A stretch of DNA of 41,961 bases from a virus. Below are positions 2,809 through 41,719 of the stretch, in pieces (position 1 is the first letter of the stretch; the number at the start of each line of letters is the position of its first letter). The translations under genes were made by a program, and so were the position numbers. The notes beneath the pieces are model-generated. The model did no database searches. It was not told the origin of the DNA and saw only the letters and a program-made list of their open reading frames with translations. The stretch is taken from positions 1 through 41,961 of IMG/VR virus record IMGVR_UViG_3300037137_001220, one strand, 5' to 3'.

Positions 2809-2819
2809 ATCGTTTCTCC

Positions 2820-3227
2820 TTATACATTAGCTGTATATACTGCTACGTCTAAATCTTCAATACCGATTGAATGTTCAAGATCTGTGTTGGTAATATAGAT
2901 ATGCAGTCTATAAAAACGTAGTCGTATCTCTGCCATAAATATCTGAAAATTATCTACTTCCTTCCAGGTCGTAGGGGTCTCTTCTTCACTATACTGGAGC
3001 ACTATGCGAAGATCTCCACAGGGCGTGGCACCCAGTAATTCTATCCAGGTCTGGCCAGCCGAGAAGTGCTCCGCCCAAGTCTCTACGCCATTAAATATCG
3101 TATCCCAAGTAGTGCCGCTACCATAAAAATGGATCACCAAATTCTCTATCCAAAGTCGTCGCACAGCCACTGATCCAAGATCTGTTGCTGTACTAATATA
3201 ATCACCTGATAATGTAGCTGTAGGCAT
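2820..3227 (-). CDS. Small tail-region protein, unknown function (135 aa)
   Basis: The stop of the large J-like gene (3228) abuts this ATG, so translation is probably coupled. The sequence is beta-rich with many aromatics (TWIELLG, IRLRFYRLHIYI) and no membrane segment or signal peptide, as expected for a small structural component of the tail tip. No family recognised. An adaptor between the central tip protein and fibres is inferred from position only. Confidence 0.7.
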   Translation of the reverse strand: MPTATLSGDYISTATDLGSVAVRRLWIENLVIHFYGSGTTWDTIFNGVETWAEHFSAGQTWIELLGATPCGDLRIVLQYSEEETPTTWKEVDNFQIFMAEIRLRFYRLHIYITNTDLEHSIGIEDLDVAVYTANV

Positions 3228-7932: not shown

Positions 7933-8489
7933 CCCACGAAGGTAATCGCACCATATTCATAGAGCAAATAGGCGCGCAAATCCTGGCCCAACTGATCCTC
8001 GAACCGTACTCGCGGCGCCCAGCGGCCTATGAACGATACCGTAATCATGGCCCCCGATCCTGGGGCAGTGGAAAACTCTATCTGATCCAATCCGTCCGCC
8101 CCGGATGCCGCGTGGAAGGTCTTCGTGGTCTGAACATTATTGATATAGGCCGTCGTGGTCACCGATGCCCCGCCGATGCATGGTATGGTAAAGAGGGTCT
8201 CGGCATTATCCCCCCGCGCGACATATTCCTTGACCCAGGTCTCGGCGACTGGCCACGCATAGCGGAAGGCGCTTAGTGCTCCCCTCGCCGTGCCGTTAAA
8301 AAAAGCAAGGACGGAGGCCGCATCCGCCTCAGATAGGTTCATATATTTCAGGGTGATCGTATATCGCGGAAAGATCATGGCCTGGGAACGGTTCTCACGC
8401 CCGGATCTCATGGTAGAGATAATCGTATTCCAGGTCGGACTACGCCGGACTGGATAAGTCAGCCCGGATATCGCCGGGAAAAGGGCCAT
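7920..8489 (-). CDS. DUF2460-family tail protein (189 aa)
   Basis: The N-terminus has the family pattern FPAISGLTYPVRRSPTWNT followed by GRENRSQAM and PRYTITLKYMNLSEADAASV. The end is a short hydrophobic patch (AYLLYEYGAITF). DUF2460 proteins are encoded just after the tape measure and form part of the distal tail in phages and gene transfer agents. Its ATG overlaps the tape-measure stop by one base, so the two are translationally coupled. Confidence 0.8.
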   Translation of the reverse strand: MALFPAISGLTYPVRRSPTWNTIISTMRSGRENRSQAMIFPRYTITLKYMNLSEADAASVLAFFNGTARGALSAFRYAWPVAETWVKEYVARGDNAETLFTIPCIGGASVTTTAYINNVQTTKTFHAASGADGLDQIEFSTAPGSGAMITVSFIGRWAPRVRFEDQLGQDLRAYLLYEYGAITFVGCPE

Positions 8490-11233
8490 TATCGCAAGGC
8501 CTCGATAATGGATGATCGGAAGGCGCCTCCCATTTTTAGATCGCGAATGAGGACGCTTGTGACCGAGGCCCCATTTCTGGTAACCGCCTCATGAAAACTC
8601 TGACTATCCGTGGCCGAGATGTTGTTGATGATCACTACAATGCCCTTTTCGCCCTGTCCCGCATTACCCGCATTACCCGCATTACCCGCATTACCCGCAC
8701 TACCGGCATTAATGCGGTCCAGGGCGGCCACGCCCTGTCGGCTGACTACATATTCGCCACGTTGAAGAATGGCGGGCACCTCGTCGGCCATGAGGCCTCC
8801 CCAATGCATCCGGTATATCGGTCCGCCCCTGTGCATGACGACTCCGCCACCATGAAATTGTCCCGGTGAGAATTCGTTCCACGAGGTGCTGAGCGATGCC
8901 CTTATTCCTCCCATTGCCTGCCCAAATCCTCCCATGATGGTGGGAATAATGGAGGTTACCACTTGTTGAGCGAAGGCCTGGGCAATCGCCCGCTGCATGG
9001 ATTGCAGAAAGCTTGTGAGATAATCCCCGAGGCTCTTCAGCTTCCCTTGCATCACATCGAAAAAGAAATCAGAAAAGGCCGACTCCATGCCCTGGGCCGC
9101 CGCCTTGGCCAGATCCACGCCATTCTGAAAGGTGGTGCGGACATGGTCCATATAGTCGCGCAATCCCTCTTTCCATCCGGCGCCGAGTGAACCCGCCTGC
9201 TCTTTTTGCAATTGCCCCAGTTCCAGGAGCTGTCGCCGTGTGGCTTCGATCGCCTGGGCCTGGGCGTAATACCCGGCCGGGTCTTTGTCCTTTGACTGGG
9301 TAAGCTGGGCGGTCTCCTGAAGGGCGAGCAACCGGCGAAATAAGCTGACACGTTCTTCTATTGCCATATTCTTGCTGATTTCCCGGTTTTGTTCGGCCGT
9401 GTCGATGAGGGACAGTCCCTTCTTGATCTCTGCCTCGGCCTGCTCGGCCGCATATTTCTTCTTGATCTCCTCTGTCATCTGGGAGGCGGTGGCCGCTATC
9501 CGCGTCCGTTCGTTGTCCCGCGCCTCGCCTTCGAGGCCGGTTTTCTTGAGCAGTTCGGTCTGCTCATGCTCGAATGCCTTGACCGCCAGGAGTCTTTTGG
9601 CAAGTTCCGCGCCCTGGGCCTTTGTGAACCCCTCTTCCAGCTTCTCGCGGTTCTGCGCCTGGTTTTTCGCGAGCTTTTCAAGTTCCGCATATTCAAGAGC
9701 GACAAGTAAGGCGGTATCCGCGCCCTTTTTGCGATAGGCGTCTTGTTCCTTCTGTATAGACAGCCTGGTCAGGCCTTCCTCGTTTGTCAGGCCCTGGACG
9801 CGGAGTTCTATTTCCTGATCGGCCTGGTCCTTGCTTTCCGCTCTGCGCTCGTGCGCGGCCGCTTGGCGTTCCGTCTTTCGCGCCGCCGCTTCCGCCTTTC
9901 GAGCGGCAGCCTCGGCCTTTCGTTTTTCCCGCTCAGATATGCCCGGAGTATTCTGCTGATAGGTATAGTCCGATGCGACCTGCTCCGGGACATAGAAATA
10001 TTCCAGATCTGTTTCCGGGTCAGTCGCGATCTGCCTTTGAGCGGCCACCTTCTTCCGCGTTTCCGGGGACTCCTTGTTTAATCTGGCGATAATCTGGTCG
10101 GACAAAGGGGAAAACCCTGACTCTTTCATACCCATATCCAGCAACGCCTTGCTGGATTTAGTCTGTCGTTTGGCAAAAATGTCCATCCAGTACCGGGCCG
10201 CCTCTCCTGTCTTTCCGGGTATCCATTGCACGGCTATGACGAGGGAATAGCCTACCTTGTCTATCAACATGCCCAGGCGATAGAATTCCGCAATGACAGT
10301 CCTTATGGCGCCTGTGAACGTCTGGATGCCTTTCAAAAACTCGGGATTCCATTTAATGGTCGTGGTCTTTTCATCTATGGTCAGGAGATTATCGGCGATA
10401 TCCTTCAGCTCATACTTGATGCCCTCGAACAGAGGCTGGAAAGACATGCCGCCTACCTGCTGCGCGATATCTTTGATGTTCGACAAGAGGCCGGCCCAGG
10501 TGTTTTGCGATTCCATCCCGGCGACGCGAAACGCCGCCAGTTTGTCCATGAGAAAGCTGAAAAGCGACTGCGCGTTTTGCGAATGCTTTTGGATATCCTC
10601 ATTGGTGAGCCCCAGGACGGTAGCGATGCGCGAGGTGCGGGGATTGATGGTCCCGACCAATACCGAGCGGGTTTCTTCTCCAAGTTGATCCAATGAGAGG
10701 CCGATGGCACCGGCCGCCTGCACCATTGCCACCGTAAAATTCTTGACTTGCTGTTTATCCATGCCCTTAGACATAGCCACGGGCAGTGTCTCTTGATAGG
10801 CCCGCACCAACTGATCAAGTGTGGCAATGGTCTGAAAGTTCGCCACCTGGAGTTGGGACATCATGTCTCGTGCATCGACCTGCGCCGCGCGTAGTGCCTT
10901 TTCCGCGTCCAGGGTCTTGCCGGTTTGCGCATCGGCATATTTGCCGTTCGCCATAAAGGCGGCGGCAATGCCCAGGGCGGCAGTTTCAAGCTGTCCCAGG
11001 TAGGCTAATGAGTCTCCGACCACCATCTTGACCGCAAAGGCAGACAAGATCTCCGCGCCCAACCGTCGAAAGGATTGCATGAGGCCGCCTACTCCGGAAT
11101 CCAAATCCCTGCACCCGCCGCGCAGATCGCCGATCTTTGCTCCAGCCCCTTTTAGGTCTTCCTCCAACCCGCTGAAGGCCTCCTTGGTCTTATTCAGGGC
11201 CTCAATGATTACTTGGATTCTATTGTCTGGCAT
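8489..11233 (-). CDS. Tail tape measure protein (914 aa)
   Basis: The largest late gene after the tip protein, starting just after the frameshifted chaperone as tape measures do. Long helical and coiled-coil regions dominate, including a Lys/Glu/Ala-rich segment near 440-600. A hydrophobic block (about 770-800) and the C-terminus (GGVVMHRGGPIYRMHWGGLM and REYVVSRQGVAALD-like turn) match lambda-type tape measure C-termini. It sets tail length and passes through the tail during DNA injection. The 914 residues suggest a tail of medium length, by the usual length rule. Confidence 0.9.
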   Translation of the reverse strand: MPDNRIQVIIEALNKTKEAFSGLEEDLKGAGAKIGDLRGGCRDLDSGVGGLMQSFRRLGAEILSAFAVKMVVGDSLAYLGQLETAALGIAAAFMANGKYADAQTGKTLDAEKALRAAQVDARDMMSQLQVANFQTIATLDQLVRAYQETLPVAMSKGMDKQQVKNFTVAMVQAAGAIGLSLDQLGEETRSVLVGTINPRTSRIATVLGLTNEDIQKHSQNAQSLFSFLMDKLAAFRVAGMESQNTWAGLLSNIKDIAQQVGGMSFQPLFEGIKYELKDIADNLLTIDEKTTTIKWNPEFLKGIQTFTGAIRTVIAEFYRLGMLIDKVGYSLVIAVQWIPGKTGEAARYWMDIFAKRQTKSSKALLDMGMKESGFSPLSDQIIARLNKESPETRKKVAAQRQIATDPETDLEYFYVPEQVASDYTYQQNTPGISEREKRKAEAAARKAEAAARKTERQAAAHERRAESKDQADQEIELRVQGLTNEEGLTRLSIQKEQDAYRKKGADTALLVALEYAELEKLAKNQAQNREKLEEGFTKAQGAELAKRLLAVKAFEHEQTELLKKTGLEGEARDNERTRIAATASQMTEEIKKKYAAEQAEAEIKKGLSLIDTAEQNREISKNMAIEERVSLFRRLLALQETAQLTQSKDKDPAGYYAQAQAIEATRRQLLELGQLQKEQAGSLGAGWKEGLRDYMDHVRTTFQNGVDLAKAAAQGMESAFSDFFFDVMQGKLKSLGDYLTSFLQSMQRAIAQAFAQQVVTSIIPTIMGGFGQAMGGIRASLSTSWNEFSPGQFHGGGVVMHRGGPIYRMHWGGLMADEVPAILQRGEYVVSRQGVAALDRINAGSAGNAGNAGNAGNAGQGEKGIVVIINNISATDSQSFHEAVTRNGASVTSVLIRDLKMGGAFRSSIIEALR
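8658..8711 (-). repeat. 9-bp tandem repeat in the tape-measure gene
   Basis: Four perfect copies of CCCGCATTA and two near copies (CCCGCACTA, CCGGCATTA). They encode a Gly-Asn-Ala run (AGNAGNAGNAGNAG). Copy number could vary by slippage without breaking frame, making a flexible linker before the C-terminal domain. Confidence 0.85.
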
Positions 11234-11863
11234 ATTTCTCGCAGTTTTTGCATGCCCAGTCTAGGAATTCGCCGAATTCCATCCGGCAGCGCTCTTTCTG
11301 GTTTTGGTTGCAGCCTTTCTCGGCCTCAGTTCCACCAAAAAAGGCGATTACTTGTTCGCGGAATCGAACCTCTCGGACTCGGTATTTGATATAGGGGTTG
11401 CATTCTCCGAGGGTGAATCCCCAGAGGATGGCGTCTCGTTTGGTAATGTCTCCCCCGGCGAGGAGGGCGCAGATGTCGTCAACCCAGTCGGCTTTATTCC
11501 TGTCTGTATCTGTGTGGCCATCCCGCTTAGCTTCGACAAAAGAGAAGCTATCGGGTTGCAGACGAAAAAATCCTCTATCACCTGCAATATGGTCTCATGT
11601 GTGATGGAATATTCCAATTCAAGCGCCAAGGCATCGAGGTCCTTGTCTCTCAGGGCGGCGCCCTTTTCAGTCAAGACTATCGCCAGCGCCCCCGGAATCC
11701 TGTCTCCCAGCAGTCCAATCAGCTCCAGGACATCAATCTCTCCGGGTATTTCGAGATCCTGCGTCCTGCTGATAAGTTGCTTGATTTGCGCCAACACCAG
11801 GGGCTTCTGAATATATTTCTTGCCCCCGACTTCATACTTGAACTCCATAAACACTCCTTTCAA
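11220..11863 (-). CDS. Tail assembly chaperone, -1 frameshift product (G-T type, 214 aa)
   Basis: Starts at the ATG of the 171-aa chaperone and shifts to the -1 frame at T TTT TTC (11570..11564), giving 100 + 114 residues. The -1 frame stays open to TAG at 11220..11222, 14 bases inside the tape-measure start. The added domain reads as natural protein (ADWVDDICALLAGGDITKR, WGFTLGE, paired cysteines CKNCEKYARQ). In lambda and many siphoviruses this fused form binds the tape measure and recruits tube subunits. Layout and slippery site fit closely; efficiency is unknown. Confidence 0.88.
11348..11863 (-). CDS. Tail assembly chaperone, unshifted form (171 aa)
   Basis: Starts MKGVFMEFKYEVGGKKYIQK, has a helical middle (LVLAQIKQLISRTQDLEIP, LELIGLLGDRIPGAL), and ends in a low-complexity Ser/Pro/Thr tail (TTSAPSSPGETLPNETPSSG) read in frame 0 past the slip site. 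It lies between the tail tube and tape measure, where phages encode the G protein. The disordered tail suggests that the conserved information in this stretch is in the -1 frame. The two frames overlap for about 215 bases. Confidence 0.85.
   Translation of the reverse strand: MKGVFMEFKYEVGGKKYIQKPLVLAQIKQLISRTQDLEIPGEIDVLELIGLLGDRIPGALAIVLTEKGAALRDKDLDALALELEYSITHETILQVIEDFFVCNPIASLLSKLSGMATQIQTGIKPTGLTTSAPSSPGETLPNETPSSGDSPSENATPISNTESERFDSANK
11528..11570 (-). promoter_or_regulatory. Programmed -1 frameshift signal (slippery heptamer plus stem-loop)
   Basis: On the minus strand the heptamer T TTT TTC (11570..11564) lies in phase with the GAT TTT TTC codons of the chaperone. A 7-bp stem with a 9-base loop (11528..11550, TAGCTTC/GAAGCTA) begins 13 bases downstream. 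Purine-rich AGAGGA lies just upstream and could act as an internal Shine-Dalgarno stimulator. This is the standard arrangement for the tail chaperone shift. Confidence 0.85.
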
Positions 11864-11875
11864 TGGGACTGGATC

Positions 11876-13375
11876 TTATGCCGCATAGGCCGCGACCTTA
11901 TTTCCTATCTGGACCTGGATGGATCCATATGTATCGTCCTCGAGGATTATCAGGTCCCCTGCCTCGGCCAGGATCTTTCCATTTACCGAGATCGGGGCCT
12001 TGAGAACGGCGCATCGCGGGAATACCATCTCGACATAATAGTTCTTTCCGGCTTCAAACTCCGCCCCGGTGGCCTTCATATAGACAGCGAAATACTCATT
12101 GTCCGCAATTCTCTGCTGTAGGATGTAATCACGGGCCTGCCGATTGATGGCGAGCGTTTGCATGCGCCCCTGGCGAATGGCATAGTTCGCATAAGATCCC
12201 GTCCCCCCGGGCCTGGATTCGATCATCATCTGATTATTGAGGGTATGTTCGATGGATTCGATCTCGTCAGACATGGCATGTCCGCCCAGGATCGCCGTGC
12301 CGTTCCATTTCCCACCCAATACCACGATCAAGTCAGTCACACGCAGCGGCGGTTCCGTCTCCCGGCTGGGGAATGTACACCAGGCCGCTTCTTCCGGGAC
12401 ATAGAGTATTTCATAGGTCGTCTCTGTCGCCTCTTGTATCATGCCGGGGTCCGTCGTCGGGTTGTAAACCGCCTCGATTGCCGATGTATCCACGGGGATC
12501 GAAAATGAGTCAATGCCGATCTTGGTAATCTCATGCGTGGCATTGAGCACTGTCCAGTCGACCTGGGTAATCCCAGCTATCGTTACCTCATCATCCGTTT
12601 CCAGCCCGTGCCCGGCCCATGATACTACGCAGGATGCGGCCTTGGAAAGGCCGGCTATGGCCACTGCCGTCGCCGGGGCCGTGATCGCAAGAACGGCCAG
12701 TCCGGCATCGGAGACCGCCGTTACTGTTACGTCTTCATATTCGCCGGTGTTCGGGACCAGCACGCGAACCTGGTGGACATTATCCAGCCGGGCCGAGGGC
12801 GTCGCTCCCTCCACGGCATTGGCCGCCAGGGTGAGCTCATCCGCATTGTAGGCGGCCGTCACCGTCTCGCTGTATATATTGTTCCCGTTCTTCCCCGTGC
12901 CCTTCGCATCCATATTCACCTTCGCCCATGAGTCCTTGGCAAACGTAGCCTTGACGCTATCCGCATGCAACGAAGCGAATCGGCGTTTGAGGATTGTGCT
13001 TCCAAGCTGCATGCCAGCCGTAAAAGAAGGAAGGATCATGTCGCTCACCGGCATGATCGTATGCTTATAGCCCGTGCCCCAAGCGGCCGGGGAGGAGCTC
13101 CCTAATCCAAAGGCATAGGCGAAGGCAAAATGTTGAGCCTGGGCCTTTGGAAACTCCAATGTCACATTCGACAGGGAGCCCAGATCATATACCGTGTCGG
13201 GCTCCTCTTTCCCTGTAAGCTCGTCGCCGTTATGTTCCCGTCTGGGTTCCAATTGGATTACGGTTGACTTCGCGACCAGCATGGAGGTATCCAATGTCTG
13301 CTCGGTATTCAATGCTGTTTCCGCCACGTTCGCGGAAACAGCGATCTGATCATAGTCGGCTAGATAATTGCGCAT
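11876..13375 (-). CDS. Tail tube (major tail) protein with inserted beta domain (499 aa)
   Basis: Located between the tail terminator and the chaperone, the usual place for the major tail protein. The N-terminal 200 residues and the C-terminal 130 (IESIEHTLNNQMMIESRPGG, YVEMVFPRCAVL) are probably the tube fold. The middle contains VSWAGHGLETDDEVTIAG and NATHEITKIGIDSFSIPV (about 240-310), a pattern seen in small FCCH-like beta domains that decorate phage proteins. At 499 aa it is long for a plain tube protein, consistent with surface domains. No sheath gene is seen, so the tail is non-contractile. Confidence 0.8.
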   Translation of the reverse strand: MRNYLADYDQIAVSANVAETALNTEQTLDTSMLVAKSTVIQLEPRREHNGDELTGKEEPDTVYDLGSLSNVTLEFPKAQAQHFAFAYAFGLGSSSPAAWGTGYKHTIMPVSDMILPSFTAGMQLGSTILKRRFASLHADSVKATFAKDSWAKVNMDAKGTGKNGNNIYSETVTAAYNADELTLAANAVEGATPSARLDNVHQVRVLVPNTGEYEDVTVTAVSDAGLAVLAITAPATAVAIAGLSKAASCVVSWAGHGLETDDEVTIAGITQVDWTVLNATHEITKIGIDSFSIPVDTSAIEAVYNPTTDPGMIQEATETTYEILYVPEEAAWCTFPSRETEPPLRVTDLIVVLGGKWNGTAILGGHAMSDEIESIEHTLNNQMMIESRPGGTGSYANYAIRQGRMQTLAINRQARDYILQQRIADNEYFAVYMKATGAEFEAGKNYYVEMVFPRCAVLKAPISVNGKILAEAGDLIILEDDTYGSIQVQIGNKVAAYAA

Positions 13376-13386
13376 TGCTCATCTCC

Positions 13387-13848
13387 TTATGATAATGACC
13401 GGATTGCTAATATTTGCACATCCTTAACTAAGAAATAGACGGGATGGTAAGATCCTTCGTCGTTTTCAGCCGGGCCGGGGTCAATATCAAGGATTCCGGC
13501 CGGCAAGTCTCCCCCTCCCGATTGCTTATACTCGAGGACCACATCCTCGATTAGCTCCTCGAATTCGACCAGTTGATCCTGCGCCAGGCTTAAATCCTCC
13601 TGATGGAACCCACAATATAGCCGGACACGATGCTCGCGTTCGATTTCACCGATGGTCCATTCTCTTGGATCCACGCGCGGCGCCGTGATCATAATCAACG
13701 GCAATTCGTCCAGGCTGACCGCTATGCGCTTCTTATACACCTTCCTGACTGTGAGCGAATTCCCCCATTGCTCCATGCAAAACGCCATCAATGCGGCGTT
13801 TGTTTCGAGTTTGGTTTTGAGATCATCTATGACGTCCGTAAAGCTCAT
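13387..13848 (-). CDS. Tail terminator / completion protein (153 aa)
   Basis: Begins MSFTDVIDDLKTKLETNAAL, has a strand-rich middle (LPLIMITAPRVDPREW, EREHRVRLYCGFHQ) and ends with DIDPGPAENDEGSYHPVYFL. The size and alpha-beta pattern match tail terminator proteins that cap the tube and join it to the head. It is immediately upstream of the tube gene (11 bases) and overlaps the holin gene by 4 bases, so a lysis block separates it from the other connector genes. Confidence 0.65.
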   Translation of the reverse strand: MSFTDVIDDLKTKLETNAALMAFCMEQWGNSLTVRKVYKKRIAVSLDELPLIMITAPRVDPREWTIGEIEREHRVRLYCGFHQEDLSLAQDQLVEFEELIEDVVLEYKQSGGGDLPAGILDIDPGPAENDEGSYHPVYFLVKDVQILAIRSLS

Positions 13849-24799: not shown

Positions 24800-25078
24800 T
24801 TATCCGATCCTCTTAACAATTCTCCGCACTTGCATTTCTGACAATCCAAACCTGATCCCCAGCTCTCTACAGTTGAATCCTGTGAATTTACAGCGAATCA
24901 ATCGGTTGCGATGCTCGCATTCACGTTGTTTCCGTGTTGGTATCGTTATCCTGCATCCGCCAAGCTCGTCAATTATCATGCTGATAATTGATGTCGCTGA
25001 TGTTTCCCCTATTTCTCTATCTAATCTTTTAAAAAGATTATTGACCAAATCTCTATTATTTCCGTTTAGAATTGTCAT
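24800..25078 (-). CDS. Mor-family transcription activator (92 aa)
   Basis: LGGCRITIPTRKQRECEHRN followed by a helix-turn-helix (NCRELGIRFGLSEMQVRRIV) is the signature of the Mor/C activators of phage Mu. The N-terminal part (residues 1-40) is the dimer region. I start at ATG 25078, inside the 3' end of the recombinase gene (23-base overlap); a longer frame upstream is not protein-like. Mor-type proteins turn on middle or late genes, and two candidate late promoters share a dyad element (19485, 24556). No Mu transposase is present. Confidence 0.8.
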   Translation of the reverse strand: MTILNGNNRDLVNNLFKRLDREIGETSATSIISMIIDELGGCRITIPTRKQRECEHRNRLIRCKFTGFNCRELGIRFGLSEMQVRRIVKRIG

Positions 25079-26036
25079 TTGCCTTGTCCCTCCATAGATA
25101 AATAAATTCAGACCAATAAGCAGAAAGACTCGGGTAAATCCTATGTATGCGGCCCCTGGCTGGTAGATAACGATCAGTGGTCGAAATATTGCTATGCCCC
25201 AGTCGCTCGGCAATTGCAGCTATATCATAGCCCTTTATAGCCCTCAGATCGGAGGCATGAGTCGCCCGAAACATATGCATGTTTAACCGTGGTTTTTTTA
25301 TTTTTGCCTTGTCCGCATATCTTCTCAATATTGTCCCCAATATTCCCGCGGCCAGACGGCCTCCACTCAGTTTGCGGGTCTTTCGGTCATAGCTCATAAA
25401 AAGTGGATCCATCTCTTTTGCCCCTTGGGTAATCCTGATTATGATCAGACGACGGATACACTCCGCCGGAGCCTTCCATAGATATACCACGCGCGTCTTC
25501 TGAAACTTTCCGGTAACCGCCACATCCAGGGACCTGCCATCATCTATGATGTCCCCCAGGGTAATCCCTGTGATCTCAGCAATCCGTAATCCGCAGAAAG
25601 CAGCCAGGATCAAAATGCAAATATCACGGATACCCTTCTCGGAGGTTATATCCACTGCGGACATGAGCTTTAAGACTTCATCCTTGCAAAATTTCTGCAC
25701 GCACTTTTTATGGATCTTGGGTCGCGGAATCATAGCCGCTAAATCTTCCTTTATTACCCCTTCATAGACCAGGTAAGTGAAGAATCGTCGCAAGGCGCCC
25801 AGCTTCGTCTTCCGTGTCGCATTTGTATTCCCCTTGTAATAAGCCCATTCCAGATACCCCTCCAAATCCTTCCTGGTAATATCCTCGACCCTTTCGGAGA
25901 GACTGTTGTTCTCCAACCATTCGAAAAAGACCTCCACGAACCTGGTATATGCGGATATGCTCTTGGGATCCAATCCATGCAGAATTCGCAGGTTCCTCTG
26001 AAATCCCGAGAGATATGCAGGCAATCCTTGGATCAT
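25056..26036 (-). CDS. Tyrosine recombinase, XerC/D-like (326 aa)
   Basis: A full-length recombinase: N-terminal SAM-like core-binding domain (about 5-100) and catalytic domain with Arg151 (CGLRIAE), Lys177 (TGKFQ), His254-x-x-Arg257 (HMFR), His281 (LGHSN) and Tyr290 (TTDRYLP). It lacks an N-terminal arm-binding domain, unlike the integrase at 38812, so it is more Xer-like. GGGAGG precedes its ATG. It overlaps the Mor-like gene, forming a small operon. Possible jobs are genome multimer resolution or inversion of a DNA segment; neither is shown. Confidence 0.85.
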   Translation of the reverse strand: MIQGLPAYLSGFQRNLRILHGLDPKSISAYTRFVEVFFEWLENNSLSERVEDITRKDLEGYLEWAYYKGNTNATRKTKLGALRRFFTYLVYEGVIKEDLAAMIPRPKIHKKCVQKFCKDEVLKLMSAVDITSEKGIRDICILILAAFCGLRIAEITGITLGDIIDDGRSLDVAVTGKFQKTRVVYLWKAPAECIRRLIIIRITQGAKEMDPLFMSYDRKTRKLSGGRLAAGILGTILRRYADKAKIKKPRLNMHMFRATHASDLRAIKGYDIAAIAERLGHSNISTTDRYLPARGRIHRIYPSLSAYWSEFIYLWRDKANDNSKRK

Positions 26037-26330: not shown

Positions 26331-26547
26331 GTATATTTCGTCTATTAATTCGACTGTTCGAAACCCTTTTTCGACCATCCTTCAACATAGACCTGCCACA
26401 GGTATTCAATAAGCAAACAAGAAACAAACATATATGACCTCATATACCAAAACCAAAATAAGAATAGAGAATGTGTGCTAAAGAAGATCTTCTGTTTGAA
26501 GGATTCTCATGCGGACGCCTTCAGGTATTCTATGGGCAATCTTTACC

Positions 26548-26928
26548 ACAGCACCAGAGCACCACTTTTGCTAATTGCGGTGAAAGTACGTCATAAATTC
26601 GTGGTGCTGTGCTCTTTAATATGCCGACCACAGCACCACCACAGCACCACCACAGCACCACCACAGCACCACCACAGCACCACAACTAACTAACTAAAAC
26701 TATTATAAAAAAGGTGAAAGTGGTGCTGTGGTGCTGTGGTTTTGAAAAAAGCATCCGAAACTTTCCCTGAAAAGGGACAAAAAAAGCCAAAAACCAACAA
26801 AAACTGGAACAAAATCGCAATGTTAAACACAAAAAATGCGCGACAAAACATCAGCGGGTTTACTCCTCCCTTTAGTTGGTTCCTCCGGCCTTCGGCAAAG
26901 ACATTTTGACCATAGCACCACCACAGCC
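26548..26928. other. Iteron array, likely replication origin
   Basis: Five perfect head-to-tail copies of CACAGCACCAC occupy 26629..26683. Exact inverted copies lie at 26601..26611 and, overlapping, at 26720..26730 and 26728..26738. Degenerate copies occur near 26548 and 26914. An AT-rich stretch (26684..26712, TAACTAACTAAAAC and TATTATAAAAAA) adjoins the array like a DNA-unwinding element. The primase-helicase gene ends at 26929. The initiator is not certain; the HTH protein at 29900 is a candidate. Confidence 0.75.
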
Positions 26929-29907
26929 TTATCTCACGATCACCTTCCGGAATTTGTAAAACCTGGTGCCGCGCACAATGCGGTAGAACGGCCCCAGTCC
27001 CTCCTTGGTGATCAATTCCCAGCCACTCTTCTGCAATAAGTGCCTGTCGTTCTTAAAACGCTCCCTGAACACACTGGCATTATGGTATGGATTTCTCAGT
27101 CCATTGTTCTTGCAATAGCGGTCAAATGCCGCCACACAGTCCGCAGATGTCGCTACGAACTCCATGAATGATTGGGAGTAGGATTCCCCGTTTTCATCCC
27201 GTATGGTCTCGGCCTTGGTCTTGACGATCTCCAGGCCATACTCTGGATGCTGGTAGGCAAAAACATCGACGTCATAGCCGGCATAGGGTTCCGCCTTCAA
27301 GTCCTTCATTTTTAGTAGGTACTCGCGCACCAGTCCGTCCAACAGCTTGATGATGTTGTTAGACGATACCTCGGTTTCCTTGGCGCGCGCGTCCTGATAC
27401 TCGATCCATGCCTTCCTGATCTCCCGCTCCCCGAACTCAACCCCGTATAGGAAGTCTTCCTCACCATAGTATTCGATGTATTTTAGGATCCTCTCCAGGA
27501 TGAGCATTAAAATGGCGAGATACTCATCAGTTCGATTTTTGGCATGTCCCTTGTATTCTTTCTTCAAGATGGCGATGTAGTCCTTGCGCCGGGCCAAATT
27601 GGGCAATATCTCTCGCTGTATGAGTTTCAGGATGGATGAAAGGATAAGATCACGATTCTTTACCAAAGCCCTGATAGCCTCATCCTCAATAAAGTCGTCA
27701 GACTTGTTCTTGCTCAAAAACTCCACTTCATAGGCGCGGTTAATCAGCTCGGACTTTGGGAAGGGCTCGATGGCCGTCACGAGCACCAGTCCGCGAGGCT
27801 TTTCCTCCATGGTGTCTGTGTCTGATCCTTGGATCCTCTTTTCCTTCTGCCCGCCGGTGGCTGACAGCAGAAGGAATTTCAACATGGATTTGGTAATATC
27901 GTCTGATTCAAGGTTGTCGATGATCAGCATGGGATTCTGGCTAGCTACAGCATACGCGGCGGCAGTGGAAGGATCTCCGAGGTGCTCATTCCCAAAAACA
28001 AGGATGGAAAGCATCCTAGCCGCCGTGGTCTTTCCCGACGCCGTGGAGCCCGAGAACTTCATTATTGCCATACAGTTTACGAAATCGACCAGGAACGCGG
28101 AAATAAACCAACAAAGCACCAGATATTTCTGTTCCTTATCACAGGTCATATTGTTAAAAATCAGGTCTTTGAGAAACTTCATGCCATCGCGGATGTCTGC
28201 ATCCGGTAAGAAGTTGAACGGCATGATCTTCTTGGAAGATTTCAGCAGGACGCCCTCCTTGTTCAGTCCGTTCGGGATCGCTTCCATGCTATCCTTCGAG
28301 ATCTTCAAAATCATATTATTATGTGAATTCAGGTTGACATAAATGGTGTCTGTAGCGCGGTCCGTGAAAATCCAGGATGCAAGATCAATCTGTTTGCCGG
28401 AATTGAATGCATCGGATGCCAATGCCTCCCATACGGATCGACCCGGCTCCTTAGTGGGCAGCAAATGCGTGGATCTCTTTATCAGCGCATTAAAGGGCCG
28501 ATTATTGCCGATTTCATATATATGGTGATGATAGAGCAAATACACGTGATTGAGCCGATCCCTGAAAAAGCGGCCATTATTTGTAAAATGCTTGTGAATG
28601 ATGGTTGCTATCGTAGAAGGATCAGCATCTCTTCGGTTCGGAAGAACCTCGAGGTACATCGAAATTTCTCGCAACAGGTCGCTGCTCGCTTCGACTTCTT
28701 CCTCAATGGCCTTGCGAGACAGCCCCAGTTCTTCCAACTTCTTCACGTAGACCAGTTTTTCAACTTCCACGAGCCCGGAGATCGCGGAGAACACCTTTCG
28801 CTCCCTGAGGGCCGCAACCTGTTTATCGAGCCCGATCAGTTTCGCTACCTGCCCGATCTCCCAGGTAAGATAGTCCACCGCGTCGACCTGCAGACGTTTT
28901 AGCTCTTTCCGCCGGTCGCCCGAAAACCCCCGCAGATATTCGTCAGGATCCTTCCATGTGTCAGAATAGATGAGGATCCTCACATTGTATCCCGGCCCCT
29001 GCAAGGCCGTCGCTATCCGCCTGGTATAGGTCTCTCCGGCCGAATCGTTATCGAAGAAAAGGTAAAGGTGCTTGTTGATGCAGTGGGTCTTAAGCGACGC
29101 GATCTGGTAGTCAGCCGGCTGTCCGATCAGACCAATCACATGCTTTACGCCGGCGTCCAGTACGCTGAGGGTATCATTTTCCCCTTCGACCAGGATTACT
29201 TCACCGTATTTATGCAGGGCGTTCTGGTTGTAAAAACGCCAGGCTTTGAAGCGGAATTCGTTTGGCAGTTGGTAGGCCACCTGCTTGGCAGGATCCTTCA
29301 TGGTGAAGTGAATCACCTTTTCCCCCTCGTAATGGGGGAAAATAGCCAAATCTTTCCCGAAAAAGTCTGCGAGCACGGCCGCGTCCTTGGTCTTTCTCAT
29401 CTTGCCGAGACCGGACGCCTTGATCTCCTCGTCGGAAAAATTCTTGGATTTCAGGTGATCCACCAGGGCGCCGTCCGACCATCCCACGCGCATCTGACGG
29501 AGCATCTCTTCATCGTGCCCGCGCTTTTCGACGAGATATGAGCGGCCGCCATTCTTCAGAAAGTCCATATGATAATGCGTGGCTGCCTCAATGAAGATCC
29601 TTTCCCGTGTAGTAAGCGATTGATCGCGCTTCTTACGGTCGACCAGCGGGATACCTGCGAGTTCTGCCGCTCGCTTAAGGGATTCGCCCTTTTCGATCTT
29701 GAGATAATGTTCGAGAAAGGTAAATACGTCGCCGGATTCGTCGCATTGAAAGCATTTGTAATGAGAATCCTTGAGGGAAAAGCATTCATGCCCGCTACAA
29801 AAGGGGCACTCTGAAAGGTGCGGACCTTTCATGGTCAGTCCGGTTTCCCGATTGATCACGGAAAGGAGATCCAGACGCTCCTTGATTTCTGAGAAGTCAT
29901 TATTCAT
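26929..29907 (-). CDS. Primase-helicase (992 aa)
   Basis: Phage DNA replication protein. A zinc-binding N-terminus (Cys34, Cys37, Cys52, Cys55 in ECPFC and KCFQC), a DnaG-like TOPRIM region (VEGENDTLS near 239 and FFDNDSAGE near 286), and a C-terminal ATPase with Walker A GSTASGKTT (about 620) and LIIDN as Walker B. It probably primes and unwinds DNA near the iterons directly downstream of its 3' end. Its ATG overlaps the stop of the HTH gene by 8 bases. All key motifs are intact. Confidence 0.9.
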   Translation of the reverse strand: MNNDFSEIKERLDLLSVINRETGLTMKGPHLSECPFCSGHECFSLKDSHYKCFQCDESGDVFTFLEHYLKIEKGESLKRAAELAGIPLVDRKKRDQSLTTRERIFIEAATHYHMDFLKNGGRSYLVEKRGHDEEMLRQMRVGWSDGALVDHLKSKNFSDEEIKASGLGKMRKTKDAAVLADFFGKDLAIFPHYEGEKVIHFTMKDPAKQVAYQLPNEFRFKAWRFYNQNALHKYGEVILVEGENDTLSVLDAGVKHVIGLIGQPADYQIASLKTHCINKHLYLFFDNDSAGETYTRRIATALQGPGYNVRILIYSDTWKDPDEYLRGFSGDRRKELKRLQVDAVDYLTWEIGQVAKLIGLDKQVAALRERKVFSAISGLVEVEKLVYVKKLEELGLSRKAIEEEVEASSDLLREISMYLEVLPNRRDADPSTIATIIHKHFTNNGRFFRDRLNHVYLLYHHHIYEIGNNRPFNALIKRSTHLLPTKEPGRSVWEALASDAFNSGKQIDLASWIFTDRATDTIYVNLNSHNNMILKISKDSMEAIPNGLNKEGVLLKSSKKIMPFNFLPDADIRDGMKFLKDLIFNNMTCDKEQKYLVLCWFISAFLVDFVNCMAIMKFSGSTASGKTTAARMLSILVFGNEHLGDPSTAAAYAVASQNPMLIIDNLESDDITKSMLKFLLLSATGGQKEKRIQGSDTDTMEEKPRGLVLVTAIEPFPKSELINRAYEVEFLSKNKSDDFIEDEAIRALVKNRDLILSSILKLIQREILPNLARRKDYIAILKKEYKGHAKNRTDEYLAILMLILERILKYIEYYGEEDFLYGVEFGEREIRKAWIEYQDARAKETEVSSNNIIKLLDGLVREYLLKMKDLKAEPYAGYDVDVFAYQHPEYGLEIVKTKAETIRDENGESYSQSFMEFVATSADCVAAFDRYCKNNGLRNPYHNASVFRERFKNDRHLLQKSGWELITKEGLGPFYRIVRGTRFYKFRKVIVR

Positions 29908-30525: not shown

Positions 30526-30750
30526 TTAGGGATTACTGAGAATATTGCGCAACTTCCGCCCAATATCACTCTTACCAGGTTGATATCCCTGATGATCCGG
30601 TTCGTGCCAAGGCAACCAAGTACTTGCTTCTTCAACAGCTGCTCGCATTTCTGTTAATTCTTCCGCCATCCGAGCAATATCATCTCGGGTGGCAGCGTCC
30701 GGATTGATTTGCAACATATTAAGTCGTTCTCTCCAAGGTAAGGGCACCAT
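30526..30750 (-). CDS. Small early protein, unknown function (74 aa)
   Basis: ATG 30750 follows GAGGTG at 6 bases. The longer frame upstream runs through an attC site and is not used here. The protein is helical: VPLPWRERLNMLQINPDAAT, then DIARMAEELTEMRAAVEEA, then WLPWHEPDHQGYQPG. No family is recognised. It is probably the native neighbour of the 115-aa gene, separated by the cassette insertion: deleting the array leaves only 32 bases between them. Confidence 0.7.
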   Translation of the reverse strand: MVPLPWRERLNMLQINPDAATRDDIARMAEELTEMRAAVEEASTWLPWHEPDHQGYQPGKSDIGRKLRNILSNP

Positions 30751-30757
30751 AATCTTC

Positions 30758-30846
30758 ACCTCACGTAGAGTTGACCGGCTACGGCCTGGGGAATTCCAGA
30801 AAATCAACCCCGTTTCACGGAGTCCGGTCCAATGAAGGGTTAGCCC
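30758..30846 (-). other. attC site e, closes cassette 5 (last of array)
   Basis: Minus-strand inverse core GGGCTAAC (30846..30839) is complementary to the GTTAGCCC core that starts cassette 5 (31059). The interior shares the CGTTTCACGGAGTCCGGTC half with attC a. The 3' core is degenerate: G then TGAGGTG instead of TTRRRY, as expected if the array joins native phage DNA at a secondary site. Total about 89 bp. Confidence 0.8.
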
Positions 30847-31042
30847 TATAGCCATGCCGCAATCGCCTGATAAGCTTGGCATCAAGTAACTCTTGCACCA
30901 CGCCCCTCAAATCTCGCGTAAGATAGAAATGAGAACATATGCTATTCCATGACGTCAGCTTTCCCTGACGATTATTGCGCAGCCAGTGCAATAGAATCTC
31001 TGCGGGCGTTATCTCATGTCCCTTTACTCTTCGTGGCATCAT
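30815..31042 (-). CDS. Cassette 5 protein, small winged-helix-like (75 aa)
   Basis: ATG 31042 follows CTGGAGAG just downstream of the core site. The core of the protein, VKGHEITPAEILLHWLRNNR then VVQELLDAKLIRRLRHGY, looks like a small DNA-binding winged helix: the last strand pair RRLRHGYRANP is typical. The reading frame runs on into attC e and ends NPSLDRTP, as cassette ORFs often do. Regulation of other genes is possible; no target is known. Confidence 0.7.
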   Translation of the reverse strand: MMPRRVKGHEITPAEILLHWLRNNRQGKLTSWNSICSHFYLTRDLRGVVQELLDAKLIRRLRHGYRANPSLDRTP

Positions 31043-31051
31043 TTCTCTCCA

Positions 31052-31143
31052 GGGCTAACGATAGAATTAAGCGTCGGGCACCTGAGCGGCCCAGATAAAT
31101 CGACACGGCTATTCGCCCGTCCGCTTCGATGAATTGTTAGATC
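31052..31143 (-). other. attC site d, closes cassette 4
   Basis: Inverse core GATCTAAC (31143..31136), paired arm AATTCATCGAAGCG / CGCTTAATTCTATC, and core GTTAGCC(C) at the 31052 end, 92 bp. Its interior is nearly the same as attC c (GCCCGTCCGCTTCGATGAAT shared), so cassettes 3 and 4 carry related attC sites. The stop codon TGA of the cassette ORF overlaps the inverse core. Confidence 0.85.
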
Positions 31144-31324
31144 ATCCTGACGCACTAAATACCGGGCATTCCGATTCGTCAAAACTACTGACTTCTGTGA
31201 GGCTGAATGTGCCATCCTCATTATCTTTCCATCCATATACACAACAGATAATAATTACTTGCCCGGTTGCATCAGATTTGAATTTCTCCACATGAATGCA
31301 ACGGCGACAATCCTTTTGGGACAT
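31142..31324 (-). CDS. Cassette 4 protein, cysteine-rich (60 aa)
   Basis: ATG 31324 is preceded by AAAGGA at about 8 bases, 15-20 bases after the core GTTAGATC. The peptide has CRRC (6-9), CCVYGW (about 27-32) and SECPVF (about 52-57), a pattern of five cysteines that could hold a metal. Its TGA sits in the attC inverse core, the usual cassette layout. No family identified. A small adaptor or redox protein is only a guess. Confidence 0.6.
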   Translation of the reverse strand: MSQKDCRRCIHVEKFKSDATGQVIIICCVYGWKDNEDGTFSLTEVSSFDESECPVFSASG

Positions 31325-31338
31325 TTTTTCATTCCTTT

Positions 31339-31430
31339 GATCTAACTGGTTGGATTAAGCGGCGGGCACCTTGGCGGCCCAAAAAAATCGACATGGCTAT
31401 TCGCCCGTCCGCTTCGATGAATTGTTATCT
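31339..31430 (-). other. attC site c, closes cassette 3
   Basis: Inverse core AGATAAC (31430..31424), complementary to the GTTATCT that starts cassette 3 at 31783. Stem arm AATTCATCGAAGCG pairs with CGCTTAATCC. Core GTTAGATC is at the 31346 end. Length about 92 bp. Very similar to attC d, differing mainly at the core edges as expected for recombined sites. Confidence 0.85.
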
Positions 31431-31765
31431 GAAACCCACGCTAAAAGTCTCGACAAGACATCTTTCGATGTATGCCCGTCACACCAGGGAGCACACTCCC
31501 TGGTACGAGTGCCGCCACCGTCTAACAGTTTCCATAGAGGGAGGGGGAGATGATACGTGATGGAACCGGATGGTAAATCAATACCGGCCAAAAACCAACC
31601 GGGATAGCTTGTGCCATCGTTGTGTTTTGGGGCCCTCCATGTATATCCGGGCATTTGTCTCATTAAGGCGATAAATAACACACATCTATGTTCATATAAT
31701 TCATCGAATGTATGATATCCGTCTGACACCTTCCCGGTCTCACACTCCACGGTCAACGTTCCCAT
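31397..31765 (-). CDS. Cassette 3 protein, resembles a recurrent phage hypothetical family (122 aa)
   Basis: ATG 31765 shortly after core GTTATCT with GGAGAAA upstream. Motifs SDGYHTFDELYEHRCVLFIA, TWRAPKHNDG, GWFLAGIDLP, ITYHLPLPLWKLLD and WCDGHTSKDVL recur, as I remember them, in uncharacterised proteins of many tailed phages. Function is unknown. The frame continues into attC c, ending NNSSKRTGE. A phage-type gene in an integron cassette is notable: it suggests exchange between phage genomes and cassette pools. Confidence 0.75.
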   Translation of the reverse strand: MGTLTVECETGKVSDGYHTFDELYEHRCVLFIALMRQMPGYTWRAPKHNDGTSYPGWFLAGIDLPSGSITYHLPLPLWKLLDGGGTRTRECAPWCDGHTSKDVLSRLLAWVSDNNSSKRTGE

Positions 31766-31776
31766 TAAGTTTCTCC

Positions 31777-31868
31777 AGATAACGGTTTGCGAATCAGCCG
31801 CGCCGCCACCGACGATCCAAGAAAATCAAACCCCATTCCTCGGCGTCGGTTGCATTCGCTGGTTAGGC
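31777..31868 (-). other. attC site b, closes cassette 2
   Basis: Inverse core GCCTAAC (31868..31862), complement of core GTTAGGC at the cassette 2 start (32135). Arms CAGCGAATGCAACCG and CGGCTGATTCGCAAACC pair through GCGAAT/ATTCGC. The core is GTTATCT at 31777..31783. Its centre is unlike the other two attC groups. The TAA of the ORF overlaps the inverse core. Confidence 0.85.
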
Positions 31869-32105
31869 TTCCTCAAACTGCTTCAGCTCTGCCGTAATTG
31901 CCTCCCGCAACGCTTCCAATGCCGCCCTTTGCGCATGCGGATGCGTGCATCCTCCGCCGTTTCTGACAAACACGCATTCATCGTCTTCAGCGGGCGGCTC
32001 GACATAAAATCGTGCGAGCGTACAGTGCTCGCCAACACAGTCATAACCAGCAAAAAAATCCCCATCATAAAGGGTGGCGTTGATGTTGGCAGTCCTCCTT
32101 GCCAT
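31863..32105 (-). CDS. Cassette 2 protein, unknown function (80 aa)
   Basis: I choose ATG 32105, five bases after a strong AAAGGAGG; the longer frame to 32189 runs through attC a. The protein starts MARRTANINATLYDGDFFAG, includes GEHCTLARFYVEPPAEDDEC and GGGCTHPHAQRAALEALRE and ends in a helix. Cysteines and histidines (DCVGEHC, GGGCTHPH) could bind a metal. No family is recognised. The stop TAA lies in the attC inverse core. Confidence 0.7.
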   Translation of the reverse strand: MARRTANINATLYDGDFFAGYDCVGEHCTLARFYVEPPAEDDECVFVRNGGGCTHPHAQRAALEALREAITAELKQFEEA

Positions 32106-32128
32106 CACATCCTCCTTTCCGTCTCTCT

Positions 32129-32217
32129 GCCTAACGGTTGAATTGACCGGCTCCGGCCCGTGACGACCGCAAAACCGACATCGTTTCACGGAGTCCGGTC
32201 TAATGAATTGTTAGGAC
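32129..32217 (-). other. attC site a, closes cassette 1
   Basis: Inverse core GTCCTAAC (32217..32210), exact complement of GTTAGGAC at the array's 5' edge. Arms AATTCATTAGACCGG / CCGGTCAATTCAACC pair, with an inner GACTCCGTGA against TCACGGGCCGGAG. Core GTTAGGC is at 32135..32129. About 89 bp, closely related to attC e. Confidence 0.88.
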
Positions 32218-32416
32218 GCTTTTGATAAACTCCCTCATCTATTGCTTGCGTTCTATCCTGTCTGCAATGCTCCGCGCAACAATATCCACCATTGTGACTC
32301 GTAATCTCATTGCACCCCGGCAGCGAACATTTGCGTTTTGGTTTTTCTCGGAAATACTTGCCTGGAATGGTTACTCCCAATCCAGCCATTATGCTCCACA
32401 ATGAAAGAGTGCTCAT
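32186..32416 (-). CDS. Cassette 1 protein, zinc-binding motif (76 aa)
   Basis: ATG 32416 lies seven bases after the core GTTAGGAC, in an A-rich run (AAAAAAA) with no clear Shine-Dalgarno. The central motif CSLPGCNEITSHNGGYCC followed by AEHCR is a compact Cys/His cluster typical of small zinc-binding phage or cassette proteins. Residues 1-28 (MSTLSLWSIMAGLGVTIPG) are partly hydrophobic. The frame runs into attC a and ends NNSLDRTP. Function unknown. Confidence 0.65.
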   Translation of the reverse strand: MSTLSLWSIMAGLGVTIPGKYFREKPKRKCSLPGCNEITSHNGGYCCAEHCRQDRTQAIDEGVYQKRPNNSLDRTP

Positions 32417-32439
32417 TTTTTTGTCCTAACACATACTAG

Positions 32440-32473
32440 GCAGAAGAATCATATCCCAATATGATTCTTCTGC
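32440..32473. other. Perfect 15-bp stem with 4-base loop at the array edge
   Basis: GCAGAAGAATCATAT and its perfect complement flank CCCA. It covers the last codons and the TGA (32449) of the 115-aa gene and lies ten bases before the cassette array's 5' core. No T-run follows on either strand, so it is unlikely to be an intrinsic terminator. It may be an RNA stability element or a structure that helped cassette insertion. Confidence 0.75.
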
Positions 32474-34255: not shown

Positions 34256-34873
34256 TCATATCTCCGCCACCCGCTGCATCTCTTCCTTGCTGGGCAGCGT
34301 GTAGACCATGGTGCTGTTCAGGCTCTTGTGCCTCAACTGCTTGCTTGCGAAAAGGAGGGCCTTTTGCCTTTCCTCGTCGGATAGATGACGGCAGTCGGAC
34401 ATGATTCTCTGGGCCTTGGTATGCCTCAGGGCATGGGGAGTGTAGCGCGGTATCCCGGCTGCCGCGCACCACTTATCCATCAGATCGTTGAAGGAACGGA
34501 GGGCGAGCCTCTGGCCCTTCTTGCTTACGAAGAGCGGAGCGTCATCATCCAGGTCCTCTCTCCATTTCCGTTTCAGCTTCCGAAAGCGCAGCAGGATCTC
34601 TTGCATCTCCACCGGGAGATATATGTCGCCAGTGGCGCCCTTCTCGGCGATCCGTGCATTGACAGTGATCTTCTCTTTATCGAGGACGTCCCCGAGGTTC
34701 AGGGCCAGGGCCTCTCCCCTCCGCAGCCCCGTGGCCCGGCACAGCTTCAAAAGGACAAAGTCCCGTTCCGCCTGTCGGTCCTTTTGGTTCTTTAGAAATG
34801 AGAACAGCTTCTTTTCCTCCGCCTCGGTCAGGTAATTGACCCCCGCGTTTGTCTTCATCGTCCCGTTTGTCAT
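34256..34873 (-). CDS. Short tyrosine recombinase, catalytic domain only (205 aa)
   Basis: Carries the complete active-site set: Arg51 (TGLRRGE), Lys78 (AEKGA), His147-x-x-Arg150 (HALR), His182 (LRHKS) and Tyr191 (MVYT). It has almost no N-terminal core-binding domain, unlike XerC/D or integron integrases, and is closer in size to FimB/FimE-type recombinases. GGAGG stands 6 bases before ATG 34873. It is in the early operon between the Lar-like and methylase genes. Substrate unknown. It lacks the extra motif of IntI, so I do not call it an integron integrase. Confidence 0.8.
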   Translation of the reverse strand: MTNGTMKTNAGVNYLTEAEEKKLFSFLKNQKDRQAERDFVLLKLCRATGLRRGEALALNLGDVLDKEKITVNARIAEKGATGDIYLPVEMQEILLRFRKLKRKWREDLDDDAPLFVSKKGQRLALRSFNDLMDKWCAAAGIPRYTPHALRHTKAQRIMSDCRHLSDEERQKALLFASKQLRHKSLNSTMVYTLPSKEEMQRVAEI

Positions 34874-40413: not shown

Positions 40414-40553
40414 TATTCTACCTCCACCGCGATGGTAATCTCTTGCACCACGTCACAGGCAATCTGCACATCTCCGACCTCAACCTCTAATGCCAGGGGC
40501 TCCTGGATCAGTATCAGGTCGCCCGCCTCGCCCAGGCCCCGCGTGATAATCAT
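40413..40553 (-). CDS. Very small tail-region protein (46 aa)
   Basis: ATG 40553 overlaps the fibre gene stop (ATGA) and TAA 40413..40415 overlaps the next ATG. The peptide MIITRGLGEAGDLILIQEPL continues acidic and hydrophobic to VEVE. The double overlap argues that it is truly translated. No family recognised. Confidence 0.6.
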   Translation of the reverse strand: MIITRGLGEAGDLILIQEPLALEVEVGDVQIACDVVQEITIAVEVE

Positions 40554-41719
40554 ACCCGTCTCCGTTCAAAGACATTTCTGAATGCCGGGTCTCCAAGGCC
40601 GTCAAAGAGATCGAACCGGGCTATTTCCGTGACGTTATCCGCCTTGTACAAAATCATCTGATTCGTCGCATCGAGCTTCCACCTCCCGCCCTCGACGTCC
40701 GCCAGAAATGCCACGTCCGACTGGATGGCCGCAATCCCTGCGTTGTCCGGGGCCTCGTAATCGGCGTCGGCCAGGCGACTCGATACGGCCGCATCCAGAT
40801 TGCCCAAATCGGAGACCTTCGCCAGCACGGCCGATCCCTCGATCTCCGCAAGCGAAATGCTACTGATCCCGGCAATGGCCGCCTCAATCGCGGACTCATC
40901 CGCCGGGTCCGCCGGCAGGCGGGCGTCAATCGCTGCGATGGTCGCATTATCGGGAGAGATATAGTCCGCGGCGGCCAGACGGCTGGACACGGCGACATCC
41001 AGGTTGCCAAGGTCTGACACCTTGGCCAGCACTGTGGAGGCCTCTATCTCGCCCAGCGTCGGATGGCTCTGCATCTCGGCCAGGATGGACTGGGCTGTGC
41101 CCTCCAACGCCACCGCGCCGGTGGATAGGTTATCCAGATACCCGGCCCTATCTGCCGTAAGTCGTCCCTCCAACGTGCCAATGCCGGCGTTGTCCGGAGC
41201 GACATAGTCTGCCGCCGCCAGCCGGGTTGTGATTGTCTCCTGTGTCGCCATAAAGGCCAAGGCGATATTGGATGCGTCGGCAGGATCAGAAGGAAGCCGA
41301 CCGTCAATCGCCGCAATCCCGGAGTTATCCGGCGCAACATAGGCGGACGCGGCGAGTCTGGATGATACGGAGGCATCCAAATCAGTGGCGACATGCTCCT
41401 CGATTATCTTCCCGGCCTCTATGAGAAATTCCGCCCCGCCGGCGGCTTTGGGGTAGACATTGTAATTCGTGAATAAGTGGTACCACCCATCGTTCCACCC
41501 GGATTCATCCACGCTGCGGGCGTAATGGCCCGCCAAATTGACGGCGTCTATTTCGGTCATTGCAATCGCATTGGTAGTCCATGCAGCAGCTTTGAAGGTG
41601 CTGTCGGACCAATCATACAAATATCCGTCCGCGCCGCGCCGGATAATCAAGGACGTATTCGCGCTGACCCCGGCAATCGCTTCCCCATCATTGTTAAAGA
41701 TTGACCAGATCAGTTCCAT
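40550..41719 (-). CDS. Tail fibre / adhesin with four repeat units (389 aa)
   Basis: N-terminal Ig-like part (FNNDGEAIAGVSANTSLIIR), then repeats of VSSRLAAADYVAPDN and GIAAIDGRLP (about four, residues 115-340) that likely form a trimeric shaft. The C-terminus RWKLDATNQMILYKADNVTE then ARFDLFDGLGDPA resembles a conserved fibre terminus. DNA repeats (for example 40741..40861 against 40949..41055) underlie this. It lies 8 bases after the propeller gene. Confidence 0.75.
   Translation of the reverse strand: MELIWSIFNNDGEAIAGVSANTSLIIRRGADGYLYDWSDSTFKAAAWTTNAIAMTEIDAVNLAGHYARSVDESGWNDGWYHLFTNYNVYPKAAGGAEFLIEAGKIIEEHVATDLDASVSSRLAASAYVAPDNSGIAAIDGRLPSDPADASNIALAFMATQETITTRLAAADYVAPDNAGIGTLEGRLTADRAGYLDNLSTGAVALEGTAQSILAEMQSHPTLGEIEASTVLAKVSDLGNLDVAVSSRLAAADYISPDNATIAAIDARLPADPADESAIEAAIAGISSISLAEIEGSAVLAKVSDLGNLDAAVSSRLADADYEAPDNAGIAAIQSDVAFLADVEGGRWKLDATNQMILYKADNVTEIARFDLFDGLGDPAFRNVFERRRV

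Follow-up and report, generated by a model that had tools for sequence, protein, structure and literature searches.

A cassette array lacking an integron integrase in an uncultured temperate phage whose relatives encode integron integrases

Parts of integrons carried by phages are known from approximately 20 phages, as scattered cases. An array of at least two attC sites that lacks an integrase is a CALIN in the IntegronFinder definition (PMC9024848). Phage CALINs were described by Qi et al. (2023, PMC9892861) in TJE1, P12002L, PH101 and others, and five of the six phage attC sites assayed there worked with IntI1. The array reported here is found in the window, i.e. the whole 41,961-nucleotide stretch of DNA that was analysed. 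As in the published phage CALINs, it groups several attC sites and their small cassettes in a phage genome without IntI. It differs in having five cassettes in an uncultured temperate phage whose relatives display IntI and arrays at two recurring loci. Five of these relatives (L079, L083, L094, L163 and L068) are similar to Vibrio phage Va_90-11-286_p16 and Shewanella prophage M16-3 (PMC9892861), where IntI and an array are present in a temperate phage. However, the Va_90-11-286_p16 array is a subset of the chromosomal array of its host, whereas IntI in this clade is situated at two phage loci.

The window sites share the box spacing, the AATTC spacer and the extrahelical base position of the class 1 aadA-type attC, but have longer loops (sites of 88–92 bp), and the array carries no resistance genes, with neither IntI nor attI seen. 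Cassette insertion at attG (Loot et al. 2024, as cited in PMC12444791) would account for an isolated array within phage DNA whose last R′ box is degenerate, but no empty site was found. Phage CALINs and complete phage integrons are already published (PMC9892861), and the window array alone is a further example. In the literature searched, no phage lineage was found in which IntI and arrays recur at fixed loci. The new part is the recurrence of integrons across a phage lineage at two loci, with capture being inferred.

The window phage and its cassette array

The window is a linear metagenomic IMG/VR record without a completeness estimate. It carries a temperate siphophage with J fibre, tape measure, portal, TerL, Dam-type methylase, repressor, integrase and DnaG-like primase. 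The criteria for a temperate phage (Caudoviricetes) are met, with structural, packaging, repressor and integrase genes as well as synteny with relatives. Both flanks of the array are syntenic with related phages, which rules out an assembly chimera. The features are as follows; CM denotes the covariance model described below.

32441-32473, strand not given: perfect 14-bp hairpin without a T-run, just outside the 5′ edge of the array, read from the sequence
30764-32429, minus strand: five-cassette array (CALIN) whose attC polarity and cassette genes share this strand, which is also that of the phage early genes
32186-32416, minus strand: cassette 1 gene, 76 aa, weak HNH-family match (PHROG_144, E-value = 3.8e-5), the ORF ending inside attC1
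32129-32216, minus strand: attC1, R″ TCCTAAC, R′ GTTAGGC; CM 40.6 bits, E-value = 3e-7
31863-32105, minus strand: cassette 2 gene, 80 aa from ATG, unknown
31777-31868, minus strand: attC2, R″ GCCTAAC, R′ GTTATCT; stem, extrahelical base and edge chain, missed by the CM
31397-31765, minus strand: cassette 3 gene, 122 aa, WDGH-domain protein (PF25311, E-value = 7e-32)
31340-31430, minus strand: attC3, R″ AGATAAC, R′ GTTAGAT; CM 20.3 bits, E-value = 0.02
31142-31324, minus strand: cassette 4 gene, 60 aa, unknown
31053-31142, minus strand: attC4, R″ ATCTAAC, R′ GTTAGCC; CM 25.9 bits, E-value = 9e-4
30815-31042, minus strand: cassette 5 gene, 75 aa, unknown
30758-30845, minus strand: attC5, R″ GGCTAAC, degenerate R′ GTGAGGT; L″/L′ arms as in attC1, extrahelical base, 9-nt own-edge pairing
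30526-30750, minus strand: phage gene of approximately 74 aa directly after the array, whose GAGGTGAAG ribosome site abuts the array end
26929-29907, minus strand: DnaG-like primase, a clade marker; relatives have IntI one to three genes before the primase
25056-26036, minus strand: Xer-like tyrosine recombinase, not IntI, frequent in the clade (48–52% identity in four relatives, 28–34% in three)

The array thus consists of five small minus-strand ORFs, each followed by an attC-like site, and is separated from the primase by two small genes. The WDGH-domain protein of cassette 3 is widespread among phages (156 phage records). None of the five window cassette genes gives a PADLOC match. TJE1 displays a terminator at the same place as the hairpin of the window, according to Qi et al. 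(PMC9892861).

Other observations concern the remainder of the window. A 389-aa ORF at the right end (40550-41719) shows no Pfam or PHROG match above threshold. Iteron-like direct repeats are situated between the primase and the Xer-like recombinase in the window (26545-26740), in L010 (5199-5426) and in L079 (6438-6547); the period is 11 nt in the window and L010, and the sequence varies among phages (ACCACAGCACC, TGGGTGCAAGT). These repeats may represent a replication origin.

Three tyrosine recombinases are encoded in the window, the phage integrase (38812-39957), the Xer-like protein and a short catalytic-only protein (34256-34873), and all three are of Xer/phage type. A search of the window with TIGR02249 gave a best score of 78 bits per stretch, below the cut-off of 265, and tblastn with the phage IntI sequences matched only the three known tyrosine recombinases, with no IntI remnant. 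The 381-aa recombinase was considered as an IntI and rejected (78 bits per stretch; XerA-like and phage integrase). Relatives G006 and G012 likewise have three tyrosine recombinases.

The array qualifies as a CALIN: anatomy and edge pairing identify five attC sites and the CM three, where two are enough, and no TIGR02249 match exceeds the cut-off. It does not qualify as a complete integron, in the absence of IntI from the window. The carrier of this CALIN is a real temperate phage. A preliminary description, made from the sequence alone, had claimed that the window lacks an integron integrase, which held, and that the array is a phage-borne CALIN, which is supported. An IntI on a missing end of the linear record remains possible, though both positions at which IntI is found in the clade are covered.

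The attC sites

All five sites show R″/R′ boxes, an L″/L′ stem and an extrahelical base in the class 1 (aadA) layout, and in each the extrahelical base sits in the left arm of an imperfect L″/L′ stem. The R″ box of each cassette pairs with the 5′ edge of that same cassette: GTTAGGAC with GTCCTAAC, GTTAGGC with GCCTAAC, GTTATCTG with CAGATAAC, GTTAGATC with GATCTAAC and GTTAGCCC with GGGCTAAC. The own-edge match extends over 8, 7, 8, 9 and 9 nt for cassettes 1–5, against 4–7 nt for edges of different cassettes, and the true pairing is the unique best among 120 permutations. Three consecutive chained attC-like pairs are found in the window, whereas dinucleotide shuffles give none (33 of 40) or one (7 of 40). 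The same scan of lambda, Mu, HK97 and MACPNOA1 gave 0–2 single pairs. Since lambda, Mu and HK97 yield one or two chained pairs, a lone pair is weak evidence and was rejected as proof of an attC site.

The R′ box of attC5 reads G/TGAGGTGAAG and runs on into GAGGTGAAG, where the following phage gene has its ribosome site. The sequence past the G is probably phage DNA, a degenerate R′ box being expected at an outer junction. Without the cassettes, the outer junction (30764/32429) would read CTAGTATGTG joined to TGAGGTGAAG. Similar attC sites come as two pairs, sites 3 and 4 and sites 1 and 5.

A covariance model (R1) was trained on 22 attC sites from class 1 integrons and from Shewanella, Vibrio and Tetrasphaera (TJE1) phages, none from the window. 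Its three best matches in the window are sites 1, 4 and 3 (40.6, 25.9 and 20.3 bits), and at E-value ≤ 10 it gave no match in the control phages lambda, Mu, HK97 and MACPNOA1 (167 kb together). Sites 2 and 5 were missed by R1 and are supported by anatomy and edge pairing. A covariance model search of a small region with the filters off did not recover full sites, and an Rfam scan of the window gave no match. Single-strand folding energies of the sites are not lower than those of shuffles, and thus folding alone is not evidence for attC. Exact attC patterns gave no match in viral and genome contigs, nor did a 2-mismatch pattern of the type of sites 3 and 4 in 247 genomes of the host phylum; thus the donor is not identified.

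The five sites are genuine attC sites as shown by anatomy and own-edge pairing; that IntI recombined them is inferred, without an assay. The preliminary description had claimed five minus-strand attC-like sites, own-edge core pairing in all five, and that chance does not easily explain five. These claims held, the first with sites of 88–92 bp (anatomy and edge pairing in 5/5, CM in 3/5), the second with pairing over 7–9 nt, and the third by the shuffles and control phages, with the correction that the fifth R′ box is degenerate (GTGAGGT). It would have been refuted if attC models scored none of the sites or if related phages showed these genes without the core pairing. Neither is the case: R1 scores sites 1, 3 and 4, and the arrays of related phages share the core pairing. 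The folding check it proposed was run and does not discriminate.

Integrases and arrays in related phages

Relatives were gathered by TerL and primase from viral contigs and genomes, and all clade records are metagenomic. Most of the genome bins in which a related prophage is present are sulfate reducers of Desulfobacterota type (Desulfobacteraceae, Desulfobulbaceae, Desulforapulum), and single bins are labelled Nitrospirota and Deferribacteres. The host of the window phage is inferred, from these relatives only, to be of the same kind. The conserved gene order of the clade is short recombinase, SSB-like gene, primase, Xer-like recombinase, Mor-like activator, TerS, TerL and portal.

Cassette-like arrays are found at two loci. 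Locus 1, upstream of the primase, is occupied in the window, L079, L094, L163 and L083/G028. Locus 2, from the Mor-like gene to TerS, is occupied in L010, L083/G028 and L068, with weaker cases in L007/L008, L014 and L078. The attC arrays of related phages show the same core pairing and some of these phages also have IntI, although several arrays are supported by one chained pair and context only. Because L010, L083, L163 and others bear differing arrays at the two loci, capture appears to be recurrent. The search for a close relative sharing these flanks, with the site either empty or otherwise occupied, found none.

IntI with the IntI insert region is encoded in seven clade phages (L068, L069, L079, L083, L094, L163 and L170), a feature of the clade missed by the preliminary description. 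TIGR02249 scores over the cut-off of 265 are 425 bits (L079/G025), 397 (L083/G028), 312 (L068), 304 (L069) and 301 (L094/G035); L163 (435 bits) and L170 (437 bits) were scored by a locally built IntI HMM only. All seven have the catalytic R, HxxR, H and Y, and the insert motif is matched in 6/7, L170 being one residue off (ALARKYQ). Coordinates of IntI genes, and of arrays whose attC polarity is opposite to the cassette ORFs, are given by relative:

L079: IntI 735-1703
L116: IntI 11610-12674, minus strand; array 13158-13652
L094: IntI 1149-2231; array 117-868
L163: IntI 5707-6753; array 4995-5381
L170: IntI 1874-2938
L068: IntI 7461-8453; array 6744-7208
L069: IntI 7935-8999
L083: array 6024-7473
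L010: array 7449-9239
L175: array 12019-12962

IntI lies one to three genes before the primase, in the neighbourhood of the window array, in L079, L083/G028, L094, L163 and L170, and before TerS in L068 and L069. The intervening genes, read in four of the five former phages, give the orders IntI-primase (G028), IntI-ASCH-primase (L079), IntI-ASCH-small gene-primase (L094) and IntI-small gene-primase (L163). A first IntI tree with Xer outgroups gave long-branch warnings and was rebuilt without them. In the rebuilt tree L068, L069 and L094 form one group (100/100) and L163 and L170 another (100/100), both phage-only within the sample, while L079 and L083 are unresolved among bacterial IntI sequences. 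A wider IMG/VR search with the L068/L069/L094 group gave L094 and one weak match only. Among host-phylum genomes, 87/247 show IntI over the cut-off, and host MAGs of clade prophages contain further IntI copies.

Strand choice at attC is determined by extrahelical bases (Bouvier et al. 2009, PMC2727003). Polarity was measured here by a position-specific score, correct in 22/22 leave-one-out tests. It is forward relative to the genes in window sites 1–4, L078 and TJE1, and weakly so in L014. The score prefers the strand opposite the genes in the IntI-bearing L079, L163, L094, L083/G028 and L068, and also in L175 and two of the three L010 sites; the third L010 site is forward by score with the extrahelical base reversed, and in L007 the two measures disagree. 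The cassette ORFs read in the reversed-polarity phages run in the same direction as the phage genes. Relative to IntI, the layout would be the classical divergent one, with cassette genes flipped to follow phage transcription, as inferred from sequence asymmetry.

Further observations were made on individual contigs. L014 carries a run of larger genes with an attC-like site after each (2721-8958). Two of these cassette-like genes weakly resemble defence proteins, one encoding a Trypsin_2/LmuA-like protease and the other giving a TIR-effector match, and they may be defence genes carried as phage cassettes. A cassette-like gene of L007 weakly resembles another defence protein, the HEPN-like Ymh protein. 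L184, an 83-kb viral contig that has only the HTH protein in common with the window, displays three similar attC-like palindromes (1636-1690, 2263-2316 and 2541-2596) with no evident edge pairing.

Origin of the array and its meaning

The G/TT core pairing indicates that an integron integrase produced the five cassettes and linked them together. In the reading considered likely, the window array is a phage CALIN whose cassettes were inserted by IntI acting in trans. The source of IntI would be the integron of a sulfate-reducing host or a co-resident related phage, and the cassettes would have been added one by one. They would have landed at an ordinary, non-classical (attG-type) site ahead of an early gene of the phage, where they would be read within its early transcript. 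This reading starts from what is observed, namely the attC anatomy, the own-edge pairing, the lack of IntI in the window, the synteny, and the presence of IntI in seven related phages and in the host phylum; insertion in trans itself, the attG-type landing, expression and a benefit to the phage are inferred.

The main rival, which remains possible, is that a complete phage integron once sat before the primase and lost its IntI, or had it replaced, leaving the array behind. The five clade phages with IntI one to three genes before the primase, in the same neighbourhood as the window array, favour it. Against it, the window has no IntI remnant, and its forward attC polarity relative to the genes contrasts with the reversed polarity of most IntI-linked arrays; thus the window array is not simply the same array minus IntI.

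It is less probable that a single event of illegitimate recombination brought in the whole five-cassette block from an integron of a host chromosome. A similar capture has been described for Vibrio phages (Qi et al. 2023, PMC9892861), and the similar pairs of sites 3/4 and 1/5 are as in chromosomal arrays. However, such attC sites are absent from the 247 host-phylum genomes, and block capture fits less well because both outer edges lie exactly at cassette boundaries (GTTAGGAC and G/TGAGG), where a random event would cut through a cassette.

Movement of the cassettes by the Xer-like recombinase of the phage instead of IntI is very improbable. This protein recurs in the clade, adjoins the array in L010 and is near it in L007, but it has no IntI insert and its scores are those of XerC/XerD, and L014 has attC-like sites with no tyrosine recombinase in its record. 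No enzyme other than IntI is known to recombine attC. That the sites are ordinary terminators or hairpins resembling attC by chance, as the folding energies no better than shuffles might suggest, is practically excluded by the CM scores, the five own-edge pairings, the extrahelical base in the same arm in 5/5 sites and the negative controls.

Beyond trans insertion into the window phage, a bolder reading, which could as readily prove wrong as right, is that integrons reside in this phage lineage as one of its modules. IntI would sit in the early operon just before the primase and cassettes, some of them defence-like, would be exchanged as accessory genes, the genes of the IntI-bearing members being opposite to the usual attC polarity for the sake of phage transcription. 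The suggestion in the preliminary description that a phage carrier moves cassettes between hosts by infection is plausible and is not shown. The clade supplies concrete genomes for testing the exchange of cassettes between integrons of phages and those of bacteria. Cassettes are reported to carry anti-phage defence genes (reports cited in PMC12444791); phages would then draw on the same cassette pool as these genes, which fits those reports. If the bolder reading is true, the arrays and integrases at two fixed places would mean that these phages operate integrons to their own ends and are able to bring cassettes from one host to another by infection.
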